Shown piece by piece: positions 8,324 through 61,847 of a stretch of DNA of 64,000 nt. The stretch is from Phytoseiulus persimilis (lineage: Eukaryota; Arthropoda; Arachnida; Mesostigmata; Phytoseiidae). Within the stretch, counting starts at the first letter, position 1. Every line of letters starts with the position of its first letter. Below the pieces are notes generated by a model. That model did not search any database, had not been told where the DNA came from, and saw only the letters and a program-made list of their open reading frames with translations. The stretch is from NCBI GenBank assembly GCA_037576195.1, contig CM075104.1, positions 26,676,211-26,740,210 on the forward strand, given 5' to 3'. Position numbers and translations under genes: made by a program.

Positions 8324-8515
8324 CCGCCCGTCAGTCAGTCACTCAGCCATCAAACTGCTGTGGAGGACACCGAGCTTCGCTGCGGTGACGGTGTGTAGTG
8401 TTTCTTGGTGCAGGTAAAAGAGTTTCCGTGGACCATACTGTCGCTTGCTGGTCCAGGAGGCAAGCCCAACTTCACGACCCCACCGACAACGTCCCGAGAG
8501 GAACTACATCACACA

Positions 8516-10708
8516 ATGTCTACCGACGTGCAGCTGCCCGAAAACCTCTCCAGTTATTCGTCGGCGCAGAGACAGCGTCACCACTCGGCCAACTCGGACG
8601 AATCGAGATCGGGATCGCCGTCATCCCCGAAACCGGCGTCTCTGAACGCCAACAGCTTGGCCGCTTCTGCACTGATGCTGCAGCAAATGTACCCCCATTT
8701 CCAAGATCGAAGATTACTCGACGAACATCAATCTCCACCGAACTTCAACGCGGCTGCCCTTTGCGATCAGTTCTGCAATGTCATCAATGGCTTTCGGGGA
8801 GGGCCGAACTTCCAGGACCCTCGGAAATCACCGGGAGTCCCATGCAGTCGGCCTTCCGTAGACGCTACTGAGTGCAGACTTATCGACTATCGCGGTGAGA
8901 AAGTTGCGGCGTTCGCCTACCAGGGCGACTACCTGCTTTGCCTACCACAGGCGTTTGAGCTCTTCCTCAAGCACCTCGTAGGTGGCCTGCACACCGTCTA
9001 TGCCAAGCTCAAGCGACTTGGCATCAGTCCGATCGTTTGCAACGTTGAGCAAGTGCGAGTCTTGCGCGGTCTCGGAGCTATCCAGCCCGGTGTGAACCGC
9101 TGCAAACTGCTCGCCTGCAAGGACTTCGACGTGCTCTACAAGGACTGCACCACGGCGAGGTATGTAGCATGCAGATCTAGTTTCCTTCCATTTTGTTCTC
9201 CATATCATCAGCAACGAGCCTATGTGGCGGAAAATTATCTACGGCGTCGGCTTGGCAGCCGTTACCAATTCTTCCACCGAATCGGTTCGGCTCTGGTTTT
9301 GTTGTGCGTTCTGGCCAGAGGTGGTTATCATCCGATTCCATTCCGTGTGTTGATTGAACTCTGACCCTAGACACTCGTAAGGAAAGAGAATAGAAAACAG
9401 AGACGAGCGCCCCCTAATTTGTTGGATCGTATTTCGTTTGTTGTTCACATCTTCTGTTCGTGCCTCCAAAATTAGAGCGGATCATCTACGTCATCCCAAG
9501 CGAAGCTTTCGAGATACAGAAGCAGTTTTCTGCGCCAGTCGCAGCCAGAATCCAAGCAAAAAAGAGCGCTCGCACACGCACGCCGAGAGAGCTTCTGTAT
9601 TACGATACAAGAGAACGAAAGAAAAAAACACAACTCTCCGGTCGGAAACGGAATCCGAAGAAAAACTGAAACATCGGCCACGAATCGAGAGGGCCTCAGT
9701 GGAGTCACCACCGCAACGACTCGCTCAACGGAGCACGTTCTCGAAAGTCGCGGTGGATCCCTTCCGAGGAAAAGGACTCGAATACAATGGAGTTGCTGTT
9801 CGCCGCTAAACCTGGCACGGCCTAGTCTTTCCTCTCTCGTGGCCCCGTCGGATTTCGAGTGAGATCTAGGCGGAGCAACTCAGGGATTTCAGCCGAATGA
9901 TTCTCGCATCGGGCTCGATAAGTGAAATCTTGGGATCACCTCGCGCTCATTTACGAACTGCTGAATCGTACACTGTTGTTTGACAGATGAGGACCAAAGA
10001 GAGTAACAGCTGCCGAGTCTCTTTACTTCCCCTCTCCTTACCTGGCTCCCAGTTCGTTGTTTCTTTCGTCGAGTATTCTCGCCAATCACGACTTCGACAA
10101 AAAGGGATTTGCTTACCCCTCGTCGAAGAAACTGAAGCAGCTCCACGCGTTCCTATGCCAAGGAATCCTCGCTATCGCCAGCAGTTAGATCGAAGGAGCA
10201 TTGGATATTCCATCCCCGCCGGAGTTCTCCGACGACGATACTCTCGGGGTCCGATCGGAAAAAAATCATTCCGTTCGAGCCTGGATTTCCTACAGAATCT
10301 CATTGCCGTCGATTAAAACGCAACTCTACTCGGGATCGGGCTGTTGTGTCGTCTGGTGTTTTCAAGTTTCCATTGTTGTCATTGTTCAGAGGAGATAAAT
10401 GGCCCTGCACAGATCAGCATTTATCGTGTTGCTATTGCCGCGTTTACAGCGGTAACGATGATGAGGATGGCAGCGAGTGTCCACCGAAAGGAGGAGGCCG
10501 TTGTCCTTCTTTCTCGTTTGTCTGACGGTCTGTCCTTCTGCTGCCGCCGCTGGCTGCACTTCGTCGTCGAGGGATGATGACGTTGCGAGACGTCTGCCGG
10601 GGAGCTGGCCAGCAAGCAGCAGAGCCGGTGAAGAATCACAGCCGGAGAAAAACGCTCATTTGAAATGACGCTTTCCGTTCGGCATCTTCTCGGGGATACT
10701 CGTTTGTT

Positions 10709-19700: not shown

Positions 19701-22700
19701 GAGACGGCGATGACAGTAGACAGCCTTCTGAACGGCAGAGTCCACAAGAGCACGGAAGCCGCAACGAACATCCGAACCATCTGAAGCAAGGTGAGCCAGC
19801 ATCCCGATGGAATGTGTACTGCATGGGTGTATCATTTTTTCCACGAAGTCCCTCATACTTTCCTGAAAATTGGCGACGCTTCCCGAACGAAGTTTCCTAA
19901 CAGAGTGGAGATCAATCCTCTGGAGGAACGTATATTGACGCAACTCCTCGAACAGAAGGGGCGGAAACTTGGCGGGAGGGTTATGTTTGGCGCCGCAGAA
20001 ATATAGCTTCAATAGTTCAAGAGAACTCGCGAATATGCAGGGAATGGATGTTGGCTATCCGGAGGACTCAGAAACTGTTCAGCTATCTGAGTGTGAGAAA
20101 CACTCCGGTGGAGCATGCGCAGTTAACGTGACCGATTGTGAAGGCACGAAGGAACCTTCAGAATGGCAACTCTGAAATGACAATCATTTGAATTCTTCTG
20201 AAGCGAGGATTTCATCATAAATGGGGCTCTGTTCTTTAACCTGGCTGAACTTTGAGCAAAAACGAGAAAGGTTCAGTTTGTCTGGAATCTGAGCTTCTTA
20301 TCTTCTCATCAAAGTCTTCACTTCTCCGCAGCAGAGATTCTGAGAGTTGATTCCTAGCTGAGTATTCTGAAGTTTCCTCTTCAATGTGACACTGGAGCTT
20401 TTGGGAATGGCCGAAAACGTTAAGAAATGAGCTAGAACTTTTTTCCTGAAGCAAACAGAGACTAATTCGAAGCCAACTGGCCAGAGAAATGTAATGTCGG
20501 CGGGAGAATCTTCGTCGACATAATGAGCAGCATAGTTCACCGAGACAACGAGAGGCCGTTCTCGCAATAATAGACGCCTGAAGCGTCAAGACGAAGAGAA
20601 GCATCCTTCTCGTTAGAGAGAAACCGAGGAGAAGAAGAGAAAGAGAAAAGACACAGAGGGAAGGCGATTCAAACGATTACGTGAAATTGCTGCAATCCAA
20701 ATGTGCCATCTGGCCGCGGCTCCTTCGCAGCTCGCCGCTCGCGCTTGGCTCGGTGTGATGACCACAACGATTCCCAACTTCGGAACATTTTTGCTTGAAT
20801 CACACACTAAATTCGCTTTGCGTTTTCCTCCTTACAGAACTCCGGAGCGACGAAGAAACGCCAACCTCGGGCGTCATCGGCAACAACCACGACGGAGACG
20901 GAATGAACATACAGGCGATGCTCTTCAAAGCCATGTGGAACCAGCAGCAGGGTCCCGGTACGCAGGACGGCAAGGGACAAGGGTTTCCCCCGGGACTCGC
21001 CCTAGCCAACCTACCCAGACTAACGAACGGTCCCGCGGGACAACAGCTCGCTGCCATGGAAATCATGATGGGCTTGCAGCACAACCCACAAATCGCCGCC
21101 GCGGCCGCCGCAGCGTATCAGCAACAGCTTTTCCAAGCGGCTTCGATGGCCCAACACATGAAGGGTAAAGAAAATGGGGCTGAAAGAAACAGATCAAGAT
21201 CCCCCGATGCGAAAACGAAAGAGTTCCGATCACGCGAAAGCGAAAGTCCCGCCACGGGCGGCCACCATCAACGGAGCGATCATCACCAGTCGAGGAAGAG
21301 CTCGTTCGAGAGTTCGAAGAAAATTCAGAACAATAATAACAACAATAGCATCAATTCGACCCAAGTATCGCCCAGTGTTCTGGCCGACGGCAACGCACTG
21401 AATCTGTCCTCGGCGAAGGACAAGAAAAGATCACGTTCAGTTAGCAGTGACGAAGGAAGCCTTTCCGATGGAGCCCTAAGTGAGCTCAGCGGAAATTTAG
21501 ACGACGATACCTCAAACTACGGAGACGACGACGGTAAGCGTTCCGCAGATGTTTCTCGGTGCGGGTTGAGGGTCTGTCAATGATTTCCGAATCTCTCATC
21601 ACTCAGTTTGCTAGTGACTGAACATCCGCTTGTCCTTTTCCAGAGCTCGATAAGGCGACACACTCTCCGAAGCGCGATCGTGAAGACGCGTTGTCAACCT
21701 CCAGCCGAGACTCCGCTGCCGGTGTTCGCGTACTGCAACATGCCAACGGACTCGAACGCAATGCTAGGGACAGCAATCACAGCGTCCCCACACCAATTAC
21801 TCTCATGCAGCAGCACCTTTCCATCGAAAGGACACCTCCACCCAGTTCACCCACTCATTTAGGCGGCAATGGCGGCGGCGGCGGCAGCAGCAGCAGCACG
21901 GCCACCGCCGGCCTCCCTAACGCTAGGCTGCATCACCACGGAAACAATGTGCATAATTCTGGTGAGTTAGCAGCAGACGACTCGGTTGATGGGGATGGTC
22001 AGGGTTTTTTAGCTCCTTGAACGTCCCTGAGAATACAAGAGGCTGTTCATCGAACGCTTTCTCCGTGTCGTCGGAACAGAGATTCGTTGGCGTTCTCTCA
22101 CGTGATTATCGCTTTCCGAGACTCTTGCCGGCGTGGGCCGGGAACCGGCAACAAACGTGGAACGAGAACGCAGCGTTCGCTAAGATCATTCCTCTTTTCG
22201 GAAGTTCCGCGAGTTTGTTCCCCTCCATGTTCCGATAGAGAAGGTTTCCTCTTGCTCGATTCAGGATCGGAACGATAAGATCGACTGTTGTCTTCGACGA
22301 GTCTGCGTTTTCTAACAGGTTGCGCTCTAATTCTTACAGTTGGCAGTCCAGTCGGCTCGATCGAAGCTCTCTTACAAAATATCCTCGGTCTACTCAAAGT
22401 AGCGGAAGAGAATGCGAGAGCTCAGGAACAACAGAGGCACATGGAGAAGGCTGAACTCAAGGTGGAGATACTTCGTGAAAGGGGCATTCGAGAGCAATTG
22501 GAGAAGCAATTGCTGGAGGAGCAGAACCGACGAATCTTCTACCAGAAAAGATTGCGACGCGAAAAGAGATGCCGCCGACAGATGCAAGAACAAATCGACA
22601 CCAAACGCGTTAAACTCGCTTCAGACTCAGTCGAGGAAGAGAAGGGCGAAGATTTGGAAAGGGTTTCCAAGGCGACTGCTGCTGCTTCCGTCGAGCCTCC

Positions 22701-22800
22701 GTCATCTGTGAATCTCAATGGAACTCTACCATCGTCGTTAGAGCCGGTACTTTCCGCGCTGGACGCCTCCGCGTCAGTACCGGAAAGCCACGCCCGATGA
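8516..22800 (+). CDS. dac: Dachshund transcriptional regulator, five coding exons
   Basis: Nuclear SKI/SNO/DAC-family corepressor of the retinal-determination and limb-patterning network. Exons: 8516-9159, 19486-19790, 20838-21533, 21644-21961, 22340-22800. They sum to 2424 nt, exactly 807 codons plus stop, with compatible phases at every GT-AG junction. Residues about 119-214 form the N-terminal Dachbox (SKI/DAC domain); LCLPQAFELFLKHLVGGLHT and CNVEQVRVLRGLGAIQPGVN match fly and vertebrate DACH almost exactly. Exon 2 opens with the AT-hook-like RPGRPPGR. Exon 3 is low-complexity (poly-Ala, Gln, Asn, Ser/Arg). Exon 5 encodes the C-terminal Dachbox coiled coil (LLQNILGLLKVAEENARAQE onward). 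ATG 8516 is the first in-frame ATG after a stop; a likely 5' UTR splice acceptor lies at 8413. The 10.3 kb first intron contrasts with the short later introns. Confidence 0.97.
10709..10748. repeat. (GGC)n(GAC)n trinucleotide repeat
   Basis: Run of GGC triplets passing into GAC triplets inside dac intron 1. Noncoding in this context. Confidence 0.85.
13141..13548. repeat. Inverted repeat with about 95-bp arms in dac intron 1
   Basis: The left arm (about 13141-13235) has several copies of CCGGGAGCTCGAAA-like units followed by CTCCCTCAAATTAGG. The right arm (about 13455-13548) carries the same succession in reverse complement: CCGGGTTTTCGAGCTCCCGG with a CCAAATCGGG-type outer end. About 220 bp lie between the arms. 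This could be a fold-back element or MITE, or a hairpin-forming satellite. Arm similarity was judged by eye and is imperfect. No clear target-site duplication was found. Confidence 0.6.
14427..14484. repeat. (GTC)n trinucleotide tract
   Basis: Mostly GTC/ATC triplets within dac intron 1. The reverse strand would read as poly-Asp, but nothing supports translation. Confidence 0.85.
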
Positions 22801-23870
22801 AAGCTGTCGGCGACGTCATCACCGATAAGCAGCGACGATTCTGACAAGATGTGCGATTGAATGAGTCCAGTCGGAAAGATGTGAAACACGAGAATTCATC
22901 AGCATGTCGCGAACAATCACTGTACGGCTTGACTGATGGAAAACTTGCAAATGCTTGCTTGAACGGTTTATCGATCCGTCGTTTGCGTCGGTCGGTCGGT
23001 CGCTCCATCGATCGATCTCATGATCGACCTGACCGTCGGTCGTCCGATCGGGCAAGGGGTCAGCCCCGAATCTCAGACCTCAGAAAGAGACGGAGAGAAG
23101 AAATCACCCTTTCTTTCACTCACTCATCCATCCATACGTTGGGCCATCGATTTCATCCATTGATTATGTCATTGCGCAGCCACCTATTCAGTCGATGAGC
23201 CATTCAGTCACTCAATGATTTGATCGATCAACCATTCTTTATCTCAGTCAGTCGGTCAGAGACTTCCCGGACACACAGACGTCCAGACAGACAGTGGACA
23301 CGAGTCTTCAATCGATATCCATGACGACACGAGAATCCAACGACAAACCAACAACGCAGCGCTTTCGCATCTTAGGCACATATCTGTGAAAATAGTCTTG
23401 ATCATTGCGGCAACAGGGAAGCTTGATTGAAAAGGCAAAATAAGAAAACATCATGAATACCCGGTCGATTAGGTTGAATATTACATATATTAATATTATT
23501 GATACTATTACCGAGGCCAAGCTTACGTCTTAGGAACGAGGATGAACCACCAGTAACGTGGGCCGTTCATGGGATCGGAAGTTCTCCAGGCGAGCAAAAG
23601 GCGGTCCACGCTTTACCAGTGCAGTGAATGCTAGAGATATTATAGCTGAGATGATGGAAAATCACGAGAATGTACTGTAATTATCTTCGACGGATTCATC
23701 AACAACAAAAATTTATGATGCGAAAGATGATGGTAATAATAATAACTATTAATAAACTTGGAGATATTAAAAATTATAATAATAATATTCTTAGAGTATC
23801 TGTAGAAACTACACCCATCGCGGACAGTTCGACCCAAAGCAGACTTCGAATGACGTAGAGAATAAAGAGG
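22801..23870 (+). other. dac: dac 3' UTR and downstream DNA
   Basis: No coding signal. A (TCGG)-rich stretch lies near 22.98-23.05 kb, followed by an AT-rich segment. Candidate polyadenylation signals AATAAA occur at 23751-23756 and 23861-23866. The drop in GC relative to the coding exons fits a 3' UTR about 1 kb long. Confidence 0.55.
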
Positions 23871-24212
23871 AGCAATCAAGTATGATTAACATGAACGACA
23901 TCAGAAGTGGTGGTGGTAATGATGTTTTACCAGCTCTCCAACTACTTTCCGTTGTCCGATCAACTGATTGCCACAAGCCTCATGCAAGCAACTACTCACA
24001 TACGGAGGGAAACAACCACGCAACTATCCACGAACTCACGTAACCACATAGTGCAGGGTACGAGCCTTCCTGCGGATCGAAATACGGTTTCCGTGTCGTC
24101 GATGCTGAGAACGAGAATCGGGATGTAGAGCAGCGATAAACATACTCGTGAATGATGACATTGAAGGAAAAGAAACAAAAAAAATAAACGAAGCGAATTT
24201 TATTCCGTCTCT

Positions 24213-25079
24213 TCAATCACCCTCTCGTTCATCGTTGACTATAATACTCTGTCGCATGGTTTCCTCGATGGTACCCCTCTCCTTGCGCACTTCACGCTTT
24301 GCTCCGTTCTGAAGATGTTCATCGGAAATGCTATCGCTTGACAGTTCTTCTTCTGATGGCCGGCTGAAAAGGCAGTGAGGGGCGATCTTGGAATGAAAAA
24401 AATCGTGAGGTGTTACAAAAACTTCCTCCAAGTCTTCACCTTATCCACTGGCAGATTCTTGAGTTGTCACCAAATGGAAGCTCAAAAGTCCGCCGAGCTG
24501 TTCAGAGGCCCTATCTTCTTTCGATCCCCACACAATCGGCACATCTCCCGAAAGATTCGAGCGAGCAGCCATTCCGTTGGAATTATGTATGATGTGCGAG
24601 TTGAAACCCTTCGCCATGCCTTGACTGTGAACCCCTGCTTCACCCAGAGATCTAAGTCGTATAAACTCTCCTCGACGTAGTGAAATTTTCGGTGGAACTC
24701 CGACTCCTCGACATCCAAGTCAAGGAGGGATGATCCGAGTTCCATTCCTGAGAGCGGTTGGGCTCCACTATCTCAAACAGGTTCACCTTGGCTAACTCTT
24801 GATAGAGGTAGGCAACCTTTTACCGAGTTTCCGTCACCGCTTGGTCCCCAAACAGCTCACTTCCCTTCGCGCGTCCCGATCCGGAACCGATCAAGGTCCA
24901 GAGCGAGTCCCAAACATGCTTCGTGCAAACATGAAATCTTCCACCATCCCCCCAACGGAATCTACTAGGGCTTTAAAAGCTTTCGGTTTGATCTCTTGGT
25001 AAGCCTCTTGAAGGAGGAGCGCAGTGTTGCTGAAGGCTCCAAGCCGTATTCTAGTATGCTTGAATTCCGCCGAGCTCAA
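24213..25079 (-). CDS. Unidentified minus-strand coding candidate
   Basis: Unrecognised. Reading leftward there is an exon-like stretch at 24891-25079 (ALLLQEAYQEIKPKAFKALV) and another at about 24482-24745. The best end is a short exon with RRTFELPFGDN, then donor AAG|GTGAAG and acceptor CTGCCTTTTCAG, then a charged tail beginning PSEEELSSDSISDE that ends at 24213. An AATAAA on the minus strand lies only about 10 nt past the stop. I could not join all pieces in one frame, so it may be a decayed element or a gene with misjudged splice sites. Only the acidic C-terminal exon looks convincingly coding. Confidence 0.35.
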
Positions 25080-26015
25080 GATTTAACTTCACTCAGGAGG
25101 GAATCCTGGCTCGGAGTCCATGGTCCTGGAGCGCCAGTTTACTTCACGAATCTTTCATCTAGGTGCCGGGGCTGGTCATTCGCTCGTTCGGAGCAGTTTC
25201 ATGAACATTTTTGAGACGACGAAGGCCTCCGAATGCGAGAGGTGAAACAGAGTGATCAAGTTGGGCTTCTTTCGGAAAGCACCCTGAGAAGCACAAGAAA
25301 TACACGCGACACTAGGAACCTAGCGAATCAGCTTCACTCAGGACCTCCGAATGGTCCCGAAAGTCCACAGGGTGTCGGGATTCGAGCTCAGATAAACTTT
25401 CCTTTCTTCCCGAAGATAATGAATCAGTCGGATCTGGATCGACTTGATGATCTTCGGTTGTCAGAGGGCTGGGAACGATGAGATAGAGATCTCACGTCTT
25501 CGTTGGTTTGATTCTTAGCGCATCCGAAGAAGCTCCTGCTGATGGAACTTGAACTTCCGTTTTTCGTTCGGCTTCCTGCTGTTTAACGGTAAGTTAGCGA
25601 CCTCCAGATTGTATCCTTGGGAACATCGACGGTGGGAAGAGGTGCTGGTTGCGAGCCATCTCAACCGGAAGTGGAATTGTCGAACACCGTGACGTTTCGA
25701 ATCGACACGAACACCATGAGAACATGGATTTTTCCCGCCCTGGAGAGCGGACAGCGTAGTCATTCGCTTAAAGACCAACCGGTGCCGCAGCGTTGCTGGG
25801 CGCCACTGTCGTATTTCAAAACTCTGCATCTGCGCTAACAAGAGACTCACTTTGCGCGGTTACCACCAGAGTGAAGTGTTCGCTGCACGGAATTTTCACA
25901 CCTTACGTGCCGCTTGTGACTGTGAGGGAAACACGATGGAGATCTCAAAACGACGTGAGTACCGGGAGTATGCTTTACGCCTCCATGGATCAGCTTGGAA
26001 TGATGCATCGAATGA

Positions 26016-28320
26016 TTCATTGATCATGCGAATGAGGACTCGAGAGTTTATGGAATTCCAGATCTGTCGAGCCGCGGGAAATTCATTCTGTCGAGGGCCT
26101 TGGATAGACTGATTGCCGATCCACCGGAGGTCCAACAACTGCCGACCAGTGAGATGTGTGATACCGCGGTTTACCGCCAAACGATAGGCGAAATGGTGGT
26201 GGAGGGGATGCGTAAGAGGGGATATAAGGTAACCGTTCCCCACCGCGCTTTAAGATCATGAGTCCTCGGATGATCGGAGGTGTGGGTCCCCAGTTAACGT
26301 CAAATGTGTCCTGTCAGGTCATTGCTCCTCCCCAATGGGTTTCTGATTTCCAAGCTCACGAGGCTCTGGTAGACAGGCTCAAGCAAATAGATATTGAGCA
26401 CTCCGGATTCATCAAGTCCATCAAGGAAGCCAGAAAACGACTCGACGAGATAAAAATCGATGCCCACAACAAAACACCCGAATCGGAGGAGGAATGGGAG
26501 GACGTAGACACTTCATACGCATCAAATAAATCAATCTCTTCGAAAGGAGCTTCCAGAAAGTCCAGTATTCTCAGCGCAAAGAAGGTATGTCGAGTGTCGA
26601 ATCATGCAGGCTTGCTTTTGCAGCAGGATCTCGGACCTGGTCTAGACACGTTTCTGGGAAGATGGTAACGACTTGTCCCTTCGAGCAGAGCCTGAAGCAA
26701 ATGATGCAAGACAGCGCCAAGAAAAGCTCGAATCCAACCCCGAGATTGGAGCAAGGCAGATCGACGAGGCTGAAAAACAATACGTCGACGAGCGATCCGC
26801 AAACGACCAAGAGTACGTTCGTCAATGGCTTCCTCTATTTCTAGGAGCGCGATATCCTACCCTTCTATAGGTCTTCACCGATGAGAGGATGCGATAAAGC
26901 AATTCCTTCTTAATAGGTACGCGTCAACCCAGAGCTTTGAAGCGCCAAGCAAGCTCAGTAGTTGCATCCGATGCGAAGAAAGACAAGAAGAGCAGCACGC
27001 TTGAAACCGATAAAACCGAATTCGCAAGGTAAGAGGTTCACGTGTGTTGTTTCTGTGATATTGTTGTAGGCATGTTATCGAGACCTTCTCTAACCGATGG
27101 GAGTATCCGCTCCGCAGGTCTCAGAACTCTCGCGTTCAACTGGTGAAAGAACGCAAGGAGATCAAAGACAAGGAACGAAACGAACTGATCAAAGCCAAGC
27201 TCCAGCAGAAACAAATGTCATTCAAAGAAAAAGAAAAGAAACTGCCCAAGCAATCTCAGATGGTGCAGAAGCCCTCGACTTCGAGTGCCAAAACCACCAG
27301 AACTGTAGCCGTCGCAGGAACTACACCGACAGCGTCCGGCTCGAGTGCGAAAAAGCCATCGACTGACAAGCACGCACCTGGGACGTTCGTGAAGCCGGCC
27401 TTGCCAACTGCGTCAGCCCCGTTGTCCGCTGGGAAGAACTTTATTCCCGAGAACTTGCACAATGCGAACAAAGAACGTTTCAACTCGATGCATTCTAAAG
27501 CCTTGGAGGATCGTAGACAAGGAGGACTCGTGAAACAAGCGATGTACCAGAGTATCCTAGCTGCTGGGGAAGAGAATCGCGGCGCAGTCAACTCTACCTT
27601 CCTTGTGAGCTCTTCAACAGGGATTTTTGAATCAAATTCCATTTTTTTTATACGCATGAGGAACTCCTCCCATGGCTAAAATAGCTGAGACCCTGCTAAC
27701 ATGGGTTCATCGATCTTCCAGCCTGGACTAGAGAGCAAACCAGATTTCGACGCTTCTATGGCTCTGAAAGGAATGAAAGACACGTTCGTGGTAGAGTCGG
27801 CATCAAACGCCACTTTTGTCTCGAAACCAGGGCTCTCGCCTTCGAAGAAAAAACAATCAAAAGAGACGACCAACCTTAGCGCATTCCCCGATAGCTTCAA
27901 CGAGTCATACAGAGACTACGGAATCGACGATCTTTGTTCAGATTCTGATAACACCGATGACGAAAATGCACCCACGAAACCCGTAAGATCATCCGGACCC
28001 TCTACCGATAGACTCGAGCCTGTTTCATAGTGACTGGAGGAAACTCGTCCTCTCTCTTTGGAAACGATTCGCGTCAAGTCTAATGATCAACTCTCTTGTT
28101 ACAGGTTCCCAAGTGGGCCGACCTGAAATCGGCTCGTTTCAAGAACAATGTGAAAAAACAACGCACGCTGGGCAAAACAATCACAAAGTACGCCATGGAG
28201 AACATATATGTGCCACCGTCAGTCGACCTTGAAATGATTTTCGAGGAGAAAAGCAAACGATTTGATCGGCATAACGCATCTTCCGGCTTGTGGAACGAAA
28301 CACAGGACTTTATTGTGTAA
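26016..28320 (+). CDS. INCENP-like protein, copy 1 (5' end unresolved)
   Basis: Inner centromere protein scaffolds the chromosomal passenger complex and activates Aurora B through its C-terminal IN-box. Visible exons: about 26016-26228, 26318-26584, 26689-26812, 26917-27028, 27118-27604, 27722-27982, 28105-28320; all phases agree. The acidic lead-in YGIDDLCSDSDNTDDE and the IN-box starting VPKWADLKSARF, then IYVPPSVDLEMIF and RFDRHNASSGLWN, are family hallmarks. A Lys/Glu-rich helix (VQLVKERKEIKDKERN) lies upstream. The residue before the two serines is Ala, where the usual Aurora-target motif is T-S-S. The N-terminal Survivin/Borealin-binding exon and the start codon were not found; 26016 only marks where the frame opens after a stop. 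Copy 2 lies 4 kb downstream. Confidence 0.88.
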
Positions 28321-29565
28321 CGATATTCCGTCATCGTTAAATCCATCCATTCCATCTTCATTCATCAAGCATTGAAGTACCAGACGACCCCCGTCCACTT
28401 GTGGAGGTCTCACATCCGAAGAATCCTTATTTGGTCCTGTGGGGAGCTTTCTCATAGGAGGTTCGCACTTGATGGGAGCTTCACAGTACTCCTACCATAA
28501 CTCAAGTCGCTCATTACTACAGATTCTTGTGCCCAATCACCGCTGGAAGAGGAGCGTGTTTGTAACACCAAACTCGCTAATGGAAGCTTGGCGGAGGGGG
28601 TACTTAGGTCCTCTCAAATATCTGACTAGTAGTGATATCGAAGATAGACAGTCGCATCCCATGCGCGAAAATAAGCTCGGGAGTTTTTTACATCGATCGA
28701 TGTCAAGTGGCAACGTACACATCATGACTCGGAATTTCCTCGGCGTTTGTGGGCGCCGACTTTCTAATAAACTCCTTGCTGCCAATAACATTATACTTCC
28801 TCGAAGCGTGTTCGCCGGAACAGTACGGCGCTTCGGTACTGGGACTTCCACGGCGGTTATTGCGGGAGAATCGTCGAAAGTCTACCTGAGGCTGACCTCA
28901 AGACAAACATGGATGATGGGCTAGATTCGACGCAATCATTCAACTACAACGAGGTTCAGATCTTCTGTACGATGCTGCCGTACTCTCTTCTAGCTCCGAC
29001 TGCATCACAACTAGGCCTTGAAGCGGATCCAGATCCGCAGGATCCGAAATGCGGATCAGCATCCTCAAGACCCGCGCACATTCTATCGTAAAACTTCACC
29101 GGGAAATGGTCGTACGGCGAACACGAGATCCCTGTACTTTGTTCTGGCTATCGCCCGCGTCTCTGTAGCCCGTTGTTGGCAGCCATTCAGCTCGCTCCCT
29201 CAAGTTATGGATGCTTTTTGATGAGAACTGGTTGGCAGCGATCGTGGAATCGTGGCGAACGAATCTGAACTCTCTCTCTTTCAGACCGCTACCTCTCTCC
29301 TTTCACAGTTCTCCAATAAGTTCTCCGGTGTGTGTAATTCACTACCAAGTATCGAACCGCAGTAGCTCAGAAGCAGCTGTCCGAGCTTCAACAGCTGGCT
29401 TTGCTCGGGAGAGGGCTCGTTCGAGATGATATCCCATCAGTATCGCTAAAGGCATATTATACTGGCGTCAGAATATGACCAGTTATATGTTCATTGCAGC
29501 TTTCTTCGGCGCCGGTCAGGGCTGTCGTTCGGCAGTGAACGCACCCGTACCGGAACCAATGTACA

Positions 29566-29649
29566 TTCTATACCAGAGGTCGCCAAGCTTTTTCGCATTG
29601 GCACCCCAGGGGTGCCTCGGTACACAGTTTCTCGGCCCCTGTTCTATAC
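29566..29649. mobile_element. 68-bp hAT-like insertion with 8-bp target duplication
   Basis: Positions 29574-29641 start CAGAGGTCGCC and end CTCGGCCCCTG, giving imperfect terminal inverted repeats of the CAGGGG type. The sequence TTCTATAC flanks it exactly on both sides (29566-29573 and 29642-29649). An 8-bp duplication plus CAG...CTG ends is the hAT superfamily signature. The element is too small to encode anything and must have been mobilised in trans, or be an internally deleted remnant. Confidence 0.75.
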
Positions 29650-29987
29650 AATAAATCGACCTGAAGTTACGGATAGGAGAAAAAAACTTTCGTTTTCTGT
29701 CGGTCACATCTTAGTCTGTACAGGGAAGAAGCCTGTGTCCTGTCATTTTTGACCGCAAAACCTCGCGGATCCGTTCCGAAAAGATCTTGAGTTTCGCAGA
29801 TCTTTGGAACACCTGATCACAACCGATTATTCAATGAGTGCTCTCAAAGTGCGCTAGCATTCTGCCTCTGAGACCGCCTCTTATGGACCTCATCAGGCGT
29901 CTTATCAGCTGCAACTCTGAATCACCTCTTTTGGATGGTTCAAATCAATGCTTCTCCTCGTAGAGCAGATCACCGAACTCTGCACCT

Positions 29988-30230
29988 TTGTTTTCCGGCT
30001 GAACCTCTCAGCCAGCCCTCAGAAGTGTCCCGGAATCCCCTTTCGGTATTGCTTTAGTAACACTCCCTATCGCCTCGCAAATCCCATTGCGGGCGGTGGG
30101 CTTGGGTCTTAAGATGGTTCAGATTTAATTCTGATATAAATTAAATCCTCTTTTTACCACATAAGAAATTTTTGTTGTCGGCCGGGGATCGAACCCGCGA
30201 TTGCTAGCTTAGCGTAGCACCCAAGGAAGG
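29988..30230 (-). mobile_element. tRNA-derived SINE, full-length copy
   Basis: A 243-bp element flanked by a perfect 17-bp duplication, CACCGAACTCTGCACCT, at 29971-29987 and 30231-30247. On the minus strand it begins with a tRNA-like head containing a B box (GGTTCGATCCC, at about 30186-30196) and a GCTA...TAGC anticodon-stem-like hairpin. A tRNA-unrelated body of about 180 bp follows, ending in CAGCCGGAAAACAA. The head, body, and a target duplication typical of LINE-type insertion identify a SINE. The 5' head is shorter than a full tRNA and its A box is degenerate. A second copy lacking the head lies at 58705-58885. Confidence 0.85.
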
Positions 30231-30958
30231 CACCGAACTCTGCACCTGTCGTGGACGAAGAAGCTTGACTCCGCGGGCATTTCCACCGATTGCTGAGGAA
30301 TCCTCGATCAGTTTTTCTACTCCCAGAGATTCACATACGCTTACCGAATCGGTCCTTGAGTATGTGTGTGGTGGAACGGTGCACAAACTGGTTCTCAATT
30401 CAATCAGAGACATCGGAAGTTCCAAACTGCTAGGAACTATGGGATGAGATGATTCTCTTCATCATCGCCATACATGTTTCGCATGCATGCTCGTGTTAGG
30501 ATTCCTTCGGGAATGTCACTTCTTCCACACCTGGTCAGTATCTTCAGGACAGCCGACACAGAGTGATGTAACGAGGAGTTCCTCTGATTGGCTAGCTGGG
30601 AATCATGTAAGAGAGGAGCGGTTAGAATGAATGCACTAACCAGCGTAAGCCGACGCTGGATCTCTCATTCATTGCGTTGAAGAGGCGAGGAGACATCGTC
30701 TAGCCTGTTAGTGGATGGGACACATCAATGCTCACGCCAGCTGGGCTGGGAGGAGGATTGATGGCGGAAAAAATGGTTGCCCTCTCTAATGACTCGAAAA
30801 TATATGGATAACTGAAACCCAGCAGTCCCTCCGCGCTCAGCCGAAGAGCCTCTTGTAATTCAGTGGAACTTTGCGATCGCCTGGCAACGGCGTTCGGGTG
30901 GCTTCCGAACTTCCGACCCGGCATCTGGAGGCTGGCTCAGCGACGCAACTTCCGACGG

Positions 30959-31743
30959 TCAGTGCATCGCGGGAAGAAGGAACTCGGCGGCTTGCGCGGG
31001 TTCGGGACTCTCTAGGTGGGTCGACCGCTTCCAGTCCGCCCTGTTGCGGCGCCGAACGATCTGGCGGTCATGTTCATCCGGCTTCAGCATTGCACGGCCG
31101 ATGGAGTCTGTTACCTGCGCGGACACTCGATCCCCGTTCGAGAGTTGCACGGAAACAACCTCAGCCCCCCCCCCCCCCCCCGTTCTGATGATAATCGAAG
31201 TGTCGTTCCAAGCGTACAGGTGACTCGACTGACTCGCAGCTCGTGAGCGTCGAGAGGGGTTCTCCGAGGAAGACCAAAGAAAACCTCGTTGGGCGATTTG
31301 CCGCTCCGTCTTAGCGTCTATCGAATCCTTGATCGTACGCACCACTCCCTCCGCTTACCCGTTGCTTCGGCGCATCAAAAGAGCGCAAAGTAGACGAGCG
31401 ATGTTCACTTGAGAACAGGATTATGCGTAAAGCTCCGTTGTAGCTCACAAGCGTTTCCGGGGCACCCACTATCCGGAACAACCCTCGAAGGTGACTGATA
31501 AGCGAGGCTGAATTCAGAGGAAACAACTAGTCTGCACCTGTGAATTACGAAACGCTGTCAACGACAATCACAAACGTTTTGCCCCGGCGCGCTTCAGCGG
31601 AATCTATTTGGACTCGAGCCCAATGTTTGTCCGCCAGCGAGCATGGACTCTCACGGGCAAGGTACCTGGATTTCGGCGCCCGACCCGCGGAGATAGGAGA
31701 AGGACTAGAGAACGCGAACCGATTAAACTTCTCTTCGATTTAA
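30959..31743 (-). pseudogene. Ty3/Gypsy-type retrotransposon integrase relic
   Basis: Read leftward on the minus strand, pieces in different frames match the integrase core: HWARVQIDSAEARRGKTF (31743-31540), GAPETLVSYNG (31526-31311) and MVRTIKDSIDAKTE (from 31345), then a C-terminal region with a RVSAQVTDSIGR chromodomain-proximal-like segment. The frames are broken by stops and frameshifts. The second catalytic aspartate, normally in VSDNG, is Tyr here. It is therefore dead. No long terminal repeats or primer-binding site were recognised. Matching reverse transcriptase was not found. Confidence 0.8.
31165..31181. repeat. 17-nt C homopolymer
   Basis: Uninterrupted run of 17 C residues inside the Gypsy integrase relic (poly-Gly in the minus frame). 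It is one of three long G/C homopolymers in the window. Confidence 0.95.
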
Positions 31744-32178
31744 GAAAACAGAACTCAATTCTTGCGATCGTGAATCGATACTGATTCCGTCAGGTAACCC
31801 AGCAAGTTGCGCTGCTTGCCCCAGGGCGAACACCAAGAAGTTTCAAGTGAGCGTTCAGAATCCTGCACCTTCTGCAGGGCGCTCGATGGGATTGACGACA
31901 AACTCACTACCTTTTACGCGGAATCTGATTGACGTCGGTAAAGACCTTCCAGTGAGACTTGATAACAGTGCACCATCGACGAATCTCGGAAGTGCTCTCA
32001 AATATGTGATCGCACTGCTCTTGAAACGACGAGATTTGCTTCGGCCTTTGCTGTGTCAAAGCCTTTTTGTCGTTCCATAGCAAACTGGCTGTCCTTTCTC
32101 ATACTCGAGTGAGGATGATTGAATCATCGAGACAAAGTGAGTTCTGAGATAGCCCAAAACTCGATTGGCATATCGCAG

Positions 32179-34828
32179 TTCGACGCGGATTATTTGGCCA
32201 CCGGGGTTATTTGAGCACGAAGGATATTGAACTTCCAGATCTATCTGCCCGCGGCAAAGCTATCCTGGGTCTAGCTCTGGCGAAGCTAGAATCTGATCCT
32301 CCGGAGATTCCGAAACCGCCACCCAGCGAAAGGTGTAATACCGCGGTTTATCACAAACTGGTTGGCGATACTGTTGTCGAGGGAATGCGTGAAAGAGGGT
32401 ATAAGGTAATCAGCCCTTCTCGGTCGCCCATATGGAAGTGTTCAGGTTACAACATTACCGGGATTCTCAACAAGTCCGACGTCCCGTGTCAGGTCGAACA
32501 TCCGCAACAATGGAGGGCGGATTTCGAAGTCCTCGAAGCAGTGCTTCTCAGGCTCGAACGAAAAGATATCCAGCCGTCGGAATTCCAGCGGTCAATACAG
32601 CGAGCCAGGAAACGCCTCGGAGAGATGAGAATCGACGCGGTTGACAACTCAGAAAAATCAGACGGAGAATGGGAAGACGTCGACACGTCCTGTGCATCCA
32701 GTAAATCTTTTTCTTCGAAAGGCTCCTCTAGGAACTCAAATATGCTCAACGCAAAAAAAGTGAGCTGATTTTTCAATCTACCAACTTTGTGCTCACGCTC
32801 CCCGTGTAAAAATTGAGATTCTTCAATGGAGTCCTCCTCACTCTGAGCAGAGTCTCAAGCAGACGATGCAGGACGGTGCAAAGAAGGGCCCTAATCTATC
32901 ATCACGCTTGGAGTCGAACAAATCGATCAGGCTAAAGAAGAACACATCTACGAGCGACTTTCAAGCTGGCAAAAGTATGGATTTCTCCCACCGAGTGCCA
33001 ATCTTGTTGACGAGCGCGTTGTGCTCCCCCGTCCATCGACTCAATCCGTTTCGTTGACCAGCGAAAAACACTCAGTAAGAATCTCTCATCCAGGTGAAAA
33101 CCAGCCGAGTGCTCTGAAGCGCCAAGCGAGTACGGTGGTTTCCTCTGACGCGAAGAAGGAGAAGAAAACTTCGTCTCACGAAACTGATAAAACGGAATTC
33201 GCGAGGTATAGGGATGGATGTTCATCTGGTTCGGGATGTTTTAATAGCAGGATCTACAGCGCTTTCCTAAACCGCACTCCTCAGTGACCCTTTCCTCGTC
33301 CCAGCTTTTGTGTGAGAGCCGGCCGGTGGTCATGGAACATTTTTCAGTGTTCTTACCCCAGGGAGGAATTGCTGCAGAGGACGTTCCGTTGACACAATGA
33401 GCAACCTCCAATTTGAGAAAAATCCGGGTGAACTCTCGAAGCCAGGGGCGGGCAAAGCGCGGCCCCCTGCTCTAGGCAGTATAAGATTCGATAACATGAA
33501 GCAGGCCTGAATTCGCCGTGGCAATGAGCGGGCGCGATTCTGATTCCGACAAGCGAATGTTCTTGACTTTCCACGATCAGCTCCCATACTAACATCAAGT
33601 TTCGCCGCGCAGGGCTCAGAACTGTCGTGTTCAACTTGTCAAGGAGCGCAAGGAGATCAAGGAGAAGGAGCGGAGCGATTCAATAAAAGCGAAGCTCCAG
33701 CAGAAGCAGATCGCGATGAAGGAGAACGAGAAGGTTCCCAAACGATCGAAACCTGTTCAGAAAACTTCCAGTTCCGCTGCGAAGAGCGTCAGAGCCGCTG
33801 CCGCCGTGGCGGCCGACGCGGCACACGCCAATAAGTCGACGAACCACAAGCAGGCTCCTGGAACACTCGTGAAATCAGCGTTGCTGGCCGCGTCGACTAC
33901 TTCGGCCTCCGGGAAGTTTCTACCGCTCGAAAGCTCCCCATTCGCCAACCAGGGGCGTTTCCATTCGATGCAAGCCAAAGCCTCCGAGGATCGGAGACAT
34001 GGAGGGCTGGCGAAGCAAGCGATGTACCAAAGTATTCTTGCTGCCGGCGAAGAGCTCGGCGGTGCGATCAATTCGACGTTCCTCGTGAGTGTTCCGAAGG
34101 ATGACAACTTCAGGCACCCAACTTTTCTGCTGGACTGCAAAAAAGAAATCATTTCGGATTACGATAAACATGCTCCCAATGAGACTGTGCCGAATTTTCA
34201 GCCTGGAGTCGAAAGCCAGCCAGATTTTGACGCCTCTCTAGCTCTGAAAGGATTAAGAGACACGTTCGTGGTCGGAAAGGCATCAAACGCCACCTTCGTC
34301 TCGAAACCGGGACTCCTTCTCACCCCCTCAAGGAAAAATCCCATCAAAGAAACCGCAGCCTCGTTTCTGGATAGCTTCAATGAAACATTCAGAGATTACG
34401 GCCTCGACGATCTCTGCTCAGACTCTGACAATACTGACGACGAAAGTAAACCCAGTAAACCCGTAAGTTGTCCCATCCCACTCCTTAGTCGAACGCTGAG
34501 CTTCGGGATCAAAATGGGGCTTGCATCTGACGCTTGTAGCATGCTCGCGTGGTTTCCGTAGACTGGGGAGGACAGCGGAGGTCCTGAATTCCTGCGTTTC
34601 CCACCGCAGGTTCCCAAATGGGCACATCTGAAATCAGCTCGGTTCAAGGAAAAGGTGAGCAAGCAACGCCAGTTGAGCAACTCCATCACCAAGTACGGCC
34701 TGCTCAACATTTACATGCCGCCATCAGTCGATCTCGCGATGATCTTTGGAGAGGAGAACGACCGATTCGAGCGTCATAACACGTCGTCGGGCATTTGGAA
34801 CGACACGAAGGACTTCATCAAAAACTGA
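32179..34828 (+). CDS. INCENP-like protein, copy 2 (5' end unresolved)
   Basis: Tandem paralogue of copy 1 with the same role expected: Aurora B activation and centromere/midzone targeting. Exons: about 32179-32405, 32493-32759, 32851-32974, 33094-33205, 33613-34084, 34202-34462, 34610-34828. Four internal exons (267, 124, 112 and 261 nt) have exactly the same length as in copy 1 and all intron phases match. The IN-box begins VPKWAHLKSARF after YGLDDLCSDSDNTDDE and ends RFERHNTSSGIWN, so the T-S-S phosphorylation motif is intact. The protein is rich in Lys, Ser and Ala between 33613 and 34084. The first listed exon starts at a plausible acceptor (TATCGCAG) and lacks an ATG, so 5' exons are missing. 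AATAAA lies at 34905-34910. Confidence 0.9.
33443..33469. mobile_element. 27-bp CAGGGG...CCCCTG relic in INCENP copy 2 intron
   Basis: CAGGGGCGGGCAAAG at the left end and GCGGCCCCCTG at the right end form inverted termini like those of hAT elements. The flanks CTCGAAGC (33435-33442) and CTCTAGGC (33470-33477) agree at six of eight positions, as expected of an aged 8-bp duplication. At this size chance is a real alternative. Confidence 0.4.
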
Positions 34829-35716
34829 TCTATTCGCATTCCACAACATCCGCCTGTGATATGCGTGCACACAGGGCATCTTGGTATTTAACGCGGCGCT
34901 GTTGAATAAAAGCGCAGAGAACGTGCTCATTAGACTCCTGGTGGGGAAAAAATGGCTTGGTGACTCCCTTCGTTAACATTCTTTCAAGTGATGACTCTCC
35001 GTGGCCACGCAAGAGTACGGTATCCTCCGCCTGGGATGTATTGCACACCTGGACCCTAGTCTCGACCCTTTTCCATCTGGGTTTCCGCCGAACCGAGTGG
35101 ATAGAGGATATGTCGTGAATGGTTCACACGAGCGCGTCTAGTGCGCCGAATAGTTTGAATATTGTTTTTGTAGGGAACTCGATCTGTTCCGTTCCAGGGC
35201 GTATTCCACCTTTCCAGCCTCGACAGTCCATATCCGCAGCCTTCCTCTTAACGAACAAACCACCAAACCTACCTCTTCCGGGTTCCGTCGAAAACTCCTC
35301 TATCTCGTTCTCCTGAGGATGCCGCCGTCGCCATGAGCTACGGAAAGCGGTAATGCTATGCTCCCCATTCGTGAAATTGAGACCTGATGCGATTCTCGAC
35401 AAATCATCAGTCCAGCTAATGGGAAAGTGAGAATCCCTCAAAGACGCTCCCCCATGTATCCCTTTGAGTCGTTATTGGGTCGGTCAGAATGGGGCCTTTC
35501 GTCGAGAGGAATCCACTACTAAAGACTGTAAAGAGATGTATGGGCTCTGAGAAACGCGCTTCTCAGGCAACTCTTCCTCGGAAGGCTCCACTCCGATCTC
35601 GACGTTCAACAAAATGAGCTGAAAGCGACTTGAGGACGAATTGTACAAGCCAACGATAAATAATCGCTATGGCTCATGTTCGAATCATCGCGCCGAATGA
35701 GACTCCGAATACAAAG
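34829..35716. other. Intergenic stretch between INCENP copy 2 and MRPS31
   Basis: Contains the copy 2 3' UTR with AATAAA at 34905-34910. Beyond that I see no coding or repeat signal. The upstream region of MRPS31, including its promoter, must lie in the right-hand part. Confidence 0.5.
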
Positions 35717-37546
35717 ATGGCGACCATCCTCGCGTGTATCCGCGCGTCCGCCTTCGCCTCACGGTAATTCCGTAATTTTCTCTCAGAATACTTGCTTTTT
35801 GTGAACTTCGTTGCGCTCATGGGAGCTCGGAACACTGAAGTCTAGATATTTACGTTCGACTTATGACTGTTGCAGGCCTTTGAGACCGTTAGGCAGTATT
35901 CGTTTCTACTGCGATAAGAATGACGACGATGAAGCCGACACTCCTCCAAAAGGGAATAAATTATCCCTGGATGAATTGTTACTACGTGCAAAGGTACTCA
36001 TGCTTAGTGAACCCCCGTAGTTTGTACCACACCGGTTCTAGATGTGCTTGCTGGGTTCCAGTCGGTTCCATTTTTTTTTCTGAAACAGTACATAGAAATC
36101 CTCAATGAGAAACATGGGTTAGAACGAATCGCTCATATCAATCTCATGAGTGGAACTTGTTTGAAGCTCTCACCCACATTAAATCTGGACTCCCCTAGAG
36201 AGGAGTCTAGCAGTGCCCGTTTATCTCAAAATTTCCTCGGACAACCATGGCTAACCTAGACTCGGATTTGACTTGTTTTCTGACTTCAACGTTCCACTGC
36301 TCTTGGTTCAGACGTGGGGTTGGAACTGTAGACTAATGGAGTCAGCGCTAGAGGCATGAGCAGCCCTGAACGGGATACCGGAGCCGCAATAAGAGACAGG
36401 AAGTACTGAATGCTGGATTCCAACGTTCTTTCCTCTCGTTCCAGATAGAGAAGCCGGCAAGCCCCATACAACTGAAATCCGTGAAACCTCCGAGAACCGC
36501 GCCTCCGAGGGTATTGTTTGTGGGTCGCATATTGAAACATGGTTCTACGTCTTGAATACATCGACTTACGAGGATTCGAAATTTTCAGAAGGAACCCGAT
36601 CTTGATCAGAGGACAGCGCGTGTGGCGGAAAAAGCTGCCGAAGAACTACCGGGTGATGCACAGCAGAATCTTGATGAGTTGCTGGGTCAACTCAGGGAGG
36701 TTTCGAGAGAATCACGGGAGAATCTTGAGTAAGCAGGGAAGGAGTCTCCAGATTATTGACATTCATCATCTCTTGATGGTAACTCCCATCTCATGTCAGC
36801 TCTACGTTTCAGAGACATCCTTGTTGGTATGAAGATCGATCGCTCGACGGGGGCGTCAACTTCGCCGTATCCACCTCGAAGTGCGTTGGATGTCGATGGA
36901 GCTGCGCAGAAGGCTCTCTACCTCGAAGTCGCTGACAGAAGGCAGAGACCCGCACCGAGACTGGATCGGCGAAGAGAACAGCGTTCGCACGATTTATTCT
37001 CGGAATCGCGACTGGGGTTATTTCAGAAGAGTTCGCCGGACTCCGGCACTGAGGTGGGATCTCGTCTCCCAGTTTGGGATCAGTTACACGAACGAGAGCT
37101 GAAACTGTTGGTGACAACGTCTCCCAGAAACGGGTTTGAAGAGATGATCAGATGGACAGAGGAGGGTAAACTGTGGCCGTTCCCGATTAACAACGAGCTT
37201 GGTGAGATAAGCAGCTGCCAGTCCAAATTTAAACCATGATAGATCGTGCGTCGAAGCGCATGCAGAGACTGACACACATACATCTACTCATTTCACTCGT
37301 GTTATACATTCAGGTATGATTGAAGAAGCAAATGTCGGGTTTGAAGATCATGTATTCCTGGACCATCTCATTGAAGATGACAACGCTTTCCCTGCCGGAC
37401 CCGTGAAACAATTCATGGAGTTGGTCTGCGTCGGACTTTCGAAGAACCCATACATAAGCGTGGAGCGCAAGCACAAGTGTATAGAATGGTACAGAGATTA
37501 CTTCACGTCGAAGAAAAAACTTATCGAGGCTTCTATAGAGATGTGA
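35717..37546 (+). CDS. MRPS31: Mitochondrial ribosomal protein mS31
   Basis: Component of the mitochondrial small ribosomal subunit. Exons 35717-35763, 35876-35993, 36589-36728, 36813-37201 and 37314-37546 sum to 927 nt (308 aa) with matching phases. The N-terminus (MATILACIRASAFASRPLRP) is basic and Ser/Ala-rich, fitting a mitochondrial targeting peptide. The C-terminal half carries the family signature: RNGFEEMIRWTEEGKLWPFP, INNELG, then GPVKQFMELVCVGLSKNPYI and IEWYRDYF. Human MRPS31 is longer (about 395 aa), the difference being in the poorly conserved N-terminal half. AATAAA is at 37598-37603. The gene lies tail to tail with ILF2, their stops about 315 bp apart. Confidence 0.93.
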
Positions 37547-37861
37547 GATGCTGGGCCTCAACTGGTGACGTCTGAGTGCGAAAACGTCTAGAGCAGGAAT
37601 AAAGAAAGCTCTTCCATAGTGTTTACAGTGGTCTTCTTTGCCCAGAATTACAAAATGAAAAATCTCGAAATTTTACAGCTTGCTCTCGATTGTTATTCAC
37701 ACAGAGCACTATACTTCAATAAATACAGAACCCCTCGAGGTTTGGAACTTGGTTGAGTTGATGATGCTCGCACTTGCACTCAGACTCTCGATCGAACTTC
37801 AGTTCGCAAATCCATTCGTCATTTGTCCCCAGTTCCATACGCTGACTCGAACGCTCCGTGC

Positions 37862-39681
<1,820 letters not shown>

Positions 39682-40199
39682 TCCTCTTGTCTGCAATAAA
39701 GGCGAGTTTCTTTGAACAACCGTTGAGTGAGCCCTAAACATCACCTGAAATTCAACTTCCAAGACTGGATCCGAGAGGGTTCGCTCATTCCATTGAAATT
39801 CGGGCACCCTGATTGAGCGAACAAGCGCCCCATGAGCCGCAAATGCCGGTAGTGCTTGTTCAATGTTCTTATTTTCCACAAAGTCCCATCCCGGGAGGTA
39901 GTGCAGCCTCAGCCATAGCTTCAGGAGGAAGTGAATCTCCAGGTTCTCGACTCTGAGAGCTTGCTCGGTGACACAATCATCTGCAGAACGTTCGCACTTC
40001 GAGTCGATTAGTCGCATCTTCCATAAGTCACAGCTCATACCTTCGATGCACTTCTCTGGCTTGCAACTGTTATGTAAGCCTCTGTTACGGCGAGAGGAGC
40101 TTCTAGTGAAGAGCACGAGTCGCGCGGTTAAGGATCTTCAGCTTCGAATACGAGGAGTGTGTCCAATAAGTTGAAAAGCAGCTGCTTGGACAGTGGTGG

Positions 40200-41026: not shown

Positions 41027-43659
<2,633 letters not shown>

Positions 43660-47480: not shown

Positions 47481-48804
47481 TCAATTATCATCCCCCGTCG
47501 GCAGCCAAAACGCCATGTTGGTGCAGGAGGAGGCTAGCATCATGTACTTGGGATTGAACTGTACACAGCTCACAGGCCCGGTGTGCTCGGCTTTCAGCAC
47601 CGCGAGTTTGTTGCCGGTATCAGCATTCCAAGCGTGAACGCACCCGTCGCTTGAGCCAGAAAAAACGAATTGGGAGTCTGGGCTGAAGGACGCCTCGAGG
47701 GGTACCCGACGAGCGTTCGCATAACCTGCAGTCGAACGAGATCATTGTTATTGATACGAATTTCCTCTCTTCATAAGTGTTTCGAATATGTTCATCGAGT
47801 TTGCTTGAGCTAGACCCCGCTCACCTGAAAACTCGTGGAGGAGGTTTCCGTTAAACGCATCGATAAGATGGATATTTGTTCCGTTTGTGGAGATCAGCAT
47901 AGTCTTTCCATCCGGAGAGAACTTCAACCCTGTCCAATCGCAATCCTTGTCCTGGGTCAGTTTGAAAGTGTTGAATGGACCTTTATCGAACGTTCTGAGG
48001 TCGTACAACTTGATGGACTCCGAGTTGAGGCCGACAGCAAAAATCAAACCTTCCGGATCGAAGTTTCCGACGGGTCGACCTAGAATGCGGATCTTGTTTT
48101 GGAAATCGATTCCGTGGGACCATTCGTGGGAGAATGGATCATAAGAGAATTCACCTGCCAAAAGCTTACCGTTCAATTGCATGAACCCCTGACAGTTTGG
48201 TGAGCGCAAATCCCAAAGACGCAGGGTTTTGTCCAACGATCCAGAAAGAAACATATCATCCACTGGAGACGTGCAGAGAGTTACAACTTTCTTGTTGTGC
48301 GCGGGGAAGTATCGGATGTATTTGTTATCGTGGAGCGAGAGATATCTGTCGAGGGCAGAACATATCGAATCAGATCACTCAGATTTTCGATCGACGGAAC
48401 ATCTTCCCCCTGTGAGGGTCTCAAATGCAAGTCGGGTCGGAGTCCCATACCTTATTGTATCGTCAATCTTGGTTGAACTGTGTATAGCTGTATTAGGAGC
48501 GTGAGTGAAGTGAATGAGATCGACTCCATATTTTTTCGAATTCAGAGTCCTCTTCTGAATGCCTGAAAGCGAAGCATTTGGCGATTACCTCAACAATTTC
48601 GGAGGACCAGTGTTCAAGATCGTTGCCCAAAAAGCCACATTAGTCACCCTTGGAGCAGTCGTATATGATGATTGAGTCGTCGTCGCTCGACGAAATGAGT
48701 GTCATTCCATCGGATGAGAAATCGATGCAGTTTATCCTATCGGTATTTTCGCGGAAAACCTTCGCGACGCGGAATGACTTCACAACGGGCTCTATGAGCT
48801 TCAT
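47481..48804 (-). CDS. WDR82: WD repeat-containing protein 82
   Basis: WD40 propeller that links SET1/COMPASS H3K4 methyltransferase to RNA polymerase II and also joins the PNUTS-PP1 complex. Exons 48804-48648, 48562-48451, 48345-48170, 48079-47825, 47725-47481 total 945 nt, giving 314 aa (human 313). Start [20 protein letters not shown] and blocks [72 protein letters not shown] and the end [12 protein letters not shown] match human WDR82 throughout. The 90-bp intron 3 is open in frame, but comparison with human ([13 protein letters not shown] against LQG-KPVCSFDPEG) shows it is removed. Two further in-frame Met codons lie just upstream of 48804; the start chosen matches the human N-terminus. 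Confidence 0.96.
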
Positions 48805-61019: not shown

Positions 61020-61847
61020 CAGTTTCGAATCATTCTAATCCAAAGCTGTGAAACAAAAGCAACCGACCTTTCCAGTGCTATCTCCCCTCTGCTTATGACC
61101 GTGGAGACCGCTGCTGAACTTGAACTCATAGGGATGATCCACGTCTACGGTGTCGGGGAGAAGCTAGCGACTCTGGTTAAAATATGAATCATAGGCCAGG
61201 TTAACAGGGGGGGATTTTGTCCCAAGTTTTAGGGAAACGAGAACACCTCAAGCAAGCGAGAAACACGGGATTGTGTTCGAGAACGAGATTAGTTTTCAGG
61301 AACGTTGTTTTGGAAATATAAGTTTTCGTTGATTCTCCATTCCGTGAGATTGGGAGAAAACTCGACTGACACTCACATCGCCCAGCCTCTTGCTGACCGG
61401 TTGAAAATCAGCGGAGAGGAGCACGATTGGGTGCTGTACAGGATTGTTCTTAGGATGATGGGTCTGGATTTGAGGAACGGATGGTTGGAAAGGCCTTCCT
61501 TGTTGAACAATCATCAAATCGCTTCCACGCGGCTTTTGAGTTTCCGGCTTGGCTTGTGGAAAGGGATGAATATCGCATCAAACTCGGGGATTCGCCCGGA
61601 CGTAGAACCATCCCCCACGCAGAATCGGTGAACGAGTGGCTTGGAAGTGGTTTGTGCAGCCCCTGGCTCAATGAGCTGCGGCGGCAGCAGCCCCGATACA
61701 GAACCTAGTAGCGGTTCTGTTGCGGAAGCCTTGCGACTTCCGCATCAAAGGCCTCCTGCAGGCCTTGCATGCGCAACTCGGCCTATTCTCGCTCGGCTCT
61801 GTCCAGCCGAGCGAGAATCCCGTCGAGTTTCATGGCGCCCGAGCGTT

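Follow-up and report, generated by a model that had tools for sequence, protein, structure and literature searches.

The Phytoseiulus persimilis window analysed here, 64,000 nucleotides (nt) of contig C4 (C4:26676211-26740210) in a 181-Mb assembly of 127 contigs, carries two INCENP genes, A (25936-28320) and B (32115-34828), which lie head to tail on the plus strand and together span 25936-34828 (positions given without a contig name are those of the window). The chromosomal passenger complex is built on INCENP as its scaffold, and the INCENP gene is usually single. A and B are very probably protein-coding, constrained INCENP paralogues; the tandem duplication of the whole gene is old, and both copies look constrained. 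Retention of both intact genes through split roles is the best explanation of the locus, and we hold it with moderate confidence.

Structure of the two genes

Models built from reading frames and splice signals give proteins of 550 (A) and 547 (B) amino acids, each encoded by eight coding exons. All 14 introns are of the GT-AG type, the phases agree at seven of seven intron positions, and neither model contains an internal stop, a frameshift, or a noncanonical splice site. A sequence-only reading of this DNA had described two INCENP-like 3' halves arranged head to tail; the head-to-tail INCENP pair stands, but the copies are not halves, as each has its own upstream ATG exon. These first exons (A, 25936-25954; B, 32115-32136, both plus strand, as are all exons below) are homologous predicted exons that end in phase 1 at a GTGAGT donor, and their models rest on the ATG frame, the donor, the phase, and homology. 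Across the window, an ATG that opens an uninterrupted frame of 10-40 nt up to a GTGAGT donor in phase 1 is found at four plus-strand and four minus-strand sites; the first exons of A and B account for two of those on the plus strand.

Five of the remaining exons are of equal length in the two copies: exon 2 (A, 26062-26228; B, 32239-32405; 167 nt), exon 3 (26318-26584; 32493-32759; 267 nt), exon 4 (26689-26812; 32851-32974; 124 nt), exon 5 (26917-27028; 33094-33205; 112 nt), and exon 7 (27722-27982; 34202-34462; 261 nt). Thus, the four identical lengths and the matching intron phases already reported from the letters alone are borne out, and the 167-nt exon joins them. Exon 6 (27118-27604; 33613-34084) measures 487 nt in A versus 472 nt in B and, judged by eye in A, encodes a charged, coil-like stretch and a linker. 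In A, exon 7 encodes the acidic motif ahead of the IN-box, YGIDDLCSDSDNTDDE, and in both copies exon 8 (28105-28320; 34610-34828) encodes the IN-box and the stop. A possible poly(A) signal of B, AATAAA on the plus strand at 34905-34910, lies 77 nt past its stop; in a 700-nt search for A, the earliest AATAAA came at 28766.

Divergence and constraint

The similarity of A and B is far beyond chance: exons are 58-76% identical, 345 of 543 aligned residues are shared, and five families of direct repeats join the copies. None of the seven introns scores above the best of 20 shuffles (six of the seven exceed the shuffled mean), and a blastn comparison of the A flanks with the B flanks gave no match. 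The earlier remark that introns and many residues differ is therefore well founded, with introns at the shuffled level and 36% protein divergence, and the tandem duplication with two retained copies is sustained by intact frames, intact splice sites, and conservation limited to exons.

Nonsynonymous (dN) and synonymous (dS) divergence between A and B was estimated at 0.235 and 1.95 by NG86, 0.237 and 1.25 by LWL85, 0.256 and 1.36 by YN00, and 0.239 and 1.50 by maximum likelihood, so that the pairwise dN/dS ratio (omega) is roughly 0.12-0.19 across the four methods. By NG86, omega ranged from 0.064 to 0.177 in 477 of 500 bootstrap replicates, the remaining 23 being saturated. If dS is underestimated, the true omega is lower. 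The proportion of synonymous differences (pS) is 0.70 overall and 0.59-0.84 by exon; with such high synonymous divergence throughout, none of the exons shows signs of recent gene conversion. In a 60-codon scan, the highest omega, a descriptive value of 0.385, was reached in the stretch starting at residue 61. Simulated neutral copies acquired a mean of 15-23 stops at 0.3-1 substitutions per site, and A and B contain none. Moreover, one branch that had been neutral since the duplication would, by our reasoning, raise the pairwise omega to about 0.5 or more; given the observed value, neither copy can have spent most of the time since then in free drift. The sequence-only reading had named two findings that would speak against retained paralogues, and neither materialised: the two loci are not haplotypes of one gene, given their protein divergence and the state of their introns, and dN/dS, computed as it had proposed, is not near 1.

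Identification as INCENP

At the level of sequence, the INCENP identity of A and B is supported, and it rests on the C-terminal IN-box. When a profile of the A and B C-termini was searched against PDB sequences, C. elegans ICP-1 ranked first (E = 1.4e-5), followed by two human INCENP sequences (E = 0.0038 and 0.004), in agreement with the original assignment. INCENPs account for five of the six matches at E <= 10 (the others at 0.54 and 0.61), the sixth being a flagellar protein (E = 0.48). When the proteins of the first gene models were compared with Pfam, PF03941 (INCENP_ARK-bind) was the sole family to reach E <= 1 with A or B. Shorter or single queries were less informative: the A protein alone had a single, unrelated PDB match (E = 7.7), the exon-8 peptides alone had no PF03941 match, and when peptides were searched separately, the Pfam families that turned up were all unrelated and below their cut-offs (best Tantalus, E = 0.0094, for A exon 8). 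A whole-genome search with PF03941 gave no matches, as it did for the controls (0 of 14).

As in human INCENP and C. elegans ICP-1, an acidic motif, DYG..L.SD..TDDE..P.KPVP.WA, precedes an IN-box ending in SS..WN. Unlike these proteins, A and B are short (547-550 amino acids by the models), are encoded by two tandem genes, and lack a recognised CEN box. Within the IN-box, their departures from the human sequence are reciprocal, since A has ASS where human INCENP and B have TSS, and B has DLAMIF versus DLEMIF in A and DLEDIF in human. Both copies also carry a motif of the cyclin-dependent kinase type, in which a basic residue comes after a proline-directed serine or threonine (A, SPSK; B, TPSR). 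The activation site, RTSS in vertebrates (PMC12946202), lies near the end of the IN-box. Its counterpart is NASS in copy A and NTSS in copy B; thus, the serine pair is present in both copies and the threonine in B only.

Partners of the passenger complex

The genome contains one recognisable Aurora gene, at C2:24537585-24538824 on the minus strand, as judged by two motif patterns and by protein searches in which the queries were the human Auroras A and B and the mite's own Aurora. The DFGWS-type DNA pattern had 14 matches (two for the reversed control), with a kinase context only at this gene, and the CGTLDYLPPE pattern had a single match with at most one mismatch. The spliced parts of the gene best matched the PDB chain 4af3, Aurora B (311.6 bits), ahead of Aurora C (303 bits) and Aurora A (about 297-281 bits), and all other matches of the own-Aurora search at E <= 1e-25 were at most 41% identical. 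No separate Aurora A was found among the 144-146 of 345-359 candidates scored per protein search, a scope within which a second Aurora could have been missed if it is fragmented or very divergent. Two or three Auroras occur in insects (PMC2826372), and a single one is found in a basal member of each major eukaryotic group (PMC3718339).

At C26:8000-8720, on a 100-kb contig, three hand-spliced exons encode a single-BIR protein of about 140 amino acids that, from its size and layout, may be survivin; in PDB searches, its BIR scored better against NAIP (2.6e-13), DIAP1 (about 3e-12), and XIAP (1e-11) than against survivin chains (about 2e-9). Borealin was not found: PF10512 had no match at E <= 10, the four matches to PF10444 (lowest E = 0.127) all fell short of the cut-off, and in both cases the controls were also missed (0 of 14). 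A divergent histone H3, 49% identical to human H3, is encoded at C91:6000-6260 and could be a CENP-A. This candidate lends no support to a holocentric lineage without CenH3, and the suggested connection of the INCENP pair with holocentric chromosomes gained nothing from the analysis.

Further INCENP traces in the genome

Genome-wide searches with A and B revealed two further traces. On C4 at about 25.952-25.953 Mb (25952200-25953000, minus strand) lies a hybrid B/A INCENP pseudogene with stops. Its exon-6 pieces are 82-83% identical to B (157 and 78 nt) and 72-74% to A (53 and 46 nt), and its exon-8 piece is 86% identical to A and 71% to B and runs on into the A 3' flank at 70%. This composition fits an unequal exchange between the tandem copies, probably followed by decay and movement. 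The second trace, C1:42847480-42847636, is 157 nt long and 97.5% identical to part of exon 6 of A, an identity that suggests recent copying out of the INCENP locus. Three weak matches (E = 0.07-0.67) were also obtained, at C2:4503493, C1:5240939, and C4:25952678, the last of which falls inside the C4 trace. Close to the C1 fragment is a 58-nt repeat that also occurs between A and B (29983-30040, 91%). Another gene stands beside the C4 pseudogene (L009, about 5320-6700, minus strand); by eye, it resembles NIF3-like proteins.

Why two copies were kept

Under the preferred explanation, a whole-gene tandem duplication long ago would have produced the intact genes A and B, whose proteins would most likely both be scaffolds of the passenger complex, each using its C-terminal IN-box to bind one shared Aurora-B-like kinase and switch it on. 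Their roles would then be split, most simply, by the place or time of expression, for example, between somatic divisions and those of the germline or early embryo; alternatively, the diverged N-terminus may target A and B differently. Such divided expression or targeting is suggested by the long retention of both copies. Subfunctionalisation is thus a plausible prediction, and we give about even chances to a division of labour over plain redundancy or dosage.

Several observations weigh against this explanation or the models beneath it. The first exons of A and B are predictions. The PF03941 scores of both proteins (A, 21.4 bits, E = 2.3e-4; B, 19.1 bits, E = 1.2e-3) miss the curated cut-off of 22, and the arginine of the vertebrate RTSS site is present in neither. 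The N-terminal CEN box, which binds Survivin and Borealin, was not recovered: no INCENP family appeared among Pfam matches at E <= 10, hhalign gave no match to human residues 1-58, and a profile searched against PDB gave no INCENP match. As dS is near saturation, the omega values, all of them pairwise, are rough. Finally, divergence concentrated in one module was considered and not supported: among windows of 40 residues, identity bottoms out at 0.40 (within residues 272-335), with a permutation p of 0.13.

As to the CEN box, exon 3 had been considered from its by-eye likeness to human residues 10-45; with no support from Pfam, hhalign, or the PDB profile, this assignment is a guess. A low-confidence single-sequence structural model of B exon 3 (mean predicted local distance difference test score of 67) contains two helices.

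Retention of A and B for dosage or redundancy, with function and expression alike, is the closest competitor, though we think it rather unlikely. The preservation of all exons, phases, and the IN-box in both copies and the lack of significant clustering of their differences would suit it, but dS is nearly saturated and the proteins differ by 36%, and redundant copies are seldom seen to be retained for so long. It is more doubtful still that divergence was driven by conflict, with a second INCENP tracking fast-changing centromeres or the machinery of paternal chromosome elimination. Paternal chromosomes are eliminated in males of some phytoseiid mites (PMC6902594), and the Cid1/Cid5 split of centromeric histones in Drosophila is analogous (PMC8200288); the low average omega argues against such conflict, although a pairwise value is compatible with selection at single sites. 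It is very improbable that A or B is a pseudogene, whether newly formed or on its way to decay. The locus does shed dead copies (the C4 hybrid and the C1 fragment), and A has no near AATAAA, but both models are open with canonical splice sites, and omega is far from neutral. Equally improbable is a single gene whose 5' exons serve two 3' cassettes in alternation, an arrangement that would accord with the initial recognition of 3' parts only and with first exons known as predictions, and against which stands the homologous, in-phase ATG exon that each copy possesses. That the pair arose in assembly or represents two haplotypes of a single gene, as adjacency alone might suggest, can be practically dismissed in view of the pS value, the introns at the shuffled level, and the unmatched flanks.

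Neighbourhood

Pfam searches of 20 of the 174 open reading frames listed for the window left 13 without a match at E <= 0.01. They identified a Ski/Sno/Dac homology domain (8399-9361, plus strand, E = 2.8e-34), MRP-S31 (36760-37236, plus), DZF_C (37865-38470, minus), MBT repeats (42177-43656, plus), and a WD40 protein (47751-48374, minus). At 61632-62317, all three plus-strand frames are open for 201-204 amino acids, perhaps owing to low complexity, and one has a sub-threshold Pfam match only. No tandem repeats were found at 20000-40000 or in the two contig ends scanned, out of six retrieved, and no tRNA genes at 24000-36000 (bacterial settings). A 22-nt piece of the spacer matched only itself in the window, and 33 pattern matches in GTDB contigs included no relatives.

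Relation to known duplications and significance

The premise that INCENP is normally single-copy holds as the usual state but not universally. INCENP duplication is already known in apicomplexans, where it is recurrent and has yielded INCENP-A and -B in Plasmodium and INCENP-1 and -2 in Toxoplasma (PMC12946202). The mite pair resembles these in being a lineage-specific duplication. In the apicomplexans, Survivin and Borealin have been lost and Plasmodium has no RTSS-equivalent site (PMC12946202), whereas A and B keep the serine pair and a single-BIR possible survivin is present. The titles and abstract openings surveyed contain no report of a duplicated arthropod INCENP, subscription literature being covered incompletely, and the accessible parts of a paper on the monotreme passenger complex (PMC8470780) mention no INCENP duplication. 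As with Cid1 and Cid5 in Drosophila, duplicates of a usually single segregation gene have been retained; unlike A and B, Cid1 and Cid5 are histones, and their gametic specialisation has been demonstrated (PMC8200288). In some phytoseiids, including N. cucumeris, loss of the paternal set leaves males with three chromosomes (PMC6902594), whereas the present assembly has four large contigs, of 54.7, 52.0, 38.9, and 28.1 Mb.

It is conceivable, though improbable, that with one Aurora and two INCENPs the specialisation that insects obtain from two or three Auroras has moved to the scaffold, such that A and B would compete for a single kinase and direct it to separate tasks. One such task would lie in germline or early-embryo divisions, including removal of the paternal set if this mite is an eliminating species. 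Any link of the INCENP pair to paternal chromosome elimination is speculation. A retained animal INCENP pair beside a single recognisable Aurora would offer a natural test of scaffold duplication in place of kinase duplication, and would be a concrete candidate for studying the wiring of sex- or germline-specific chromosome behaviour.

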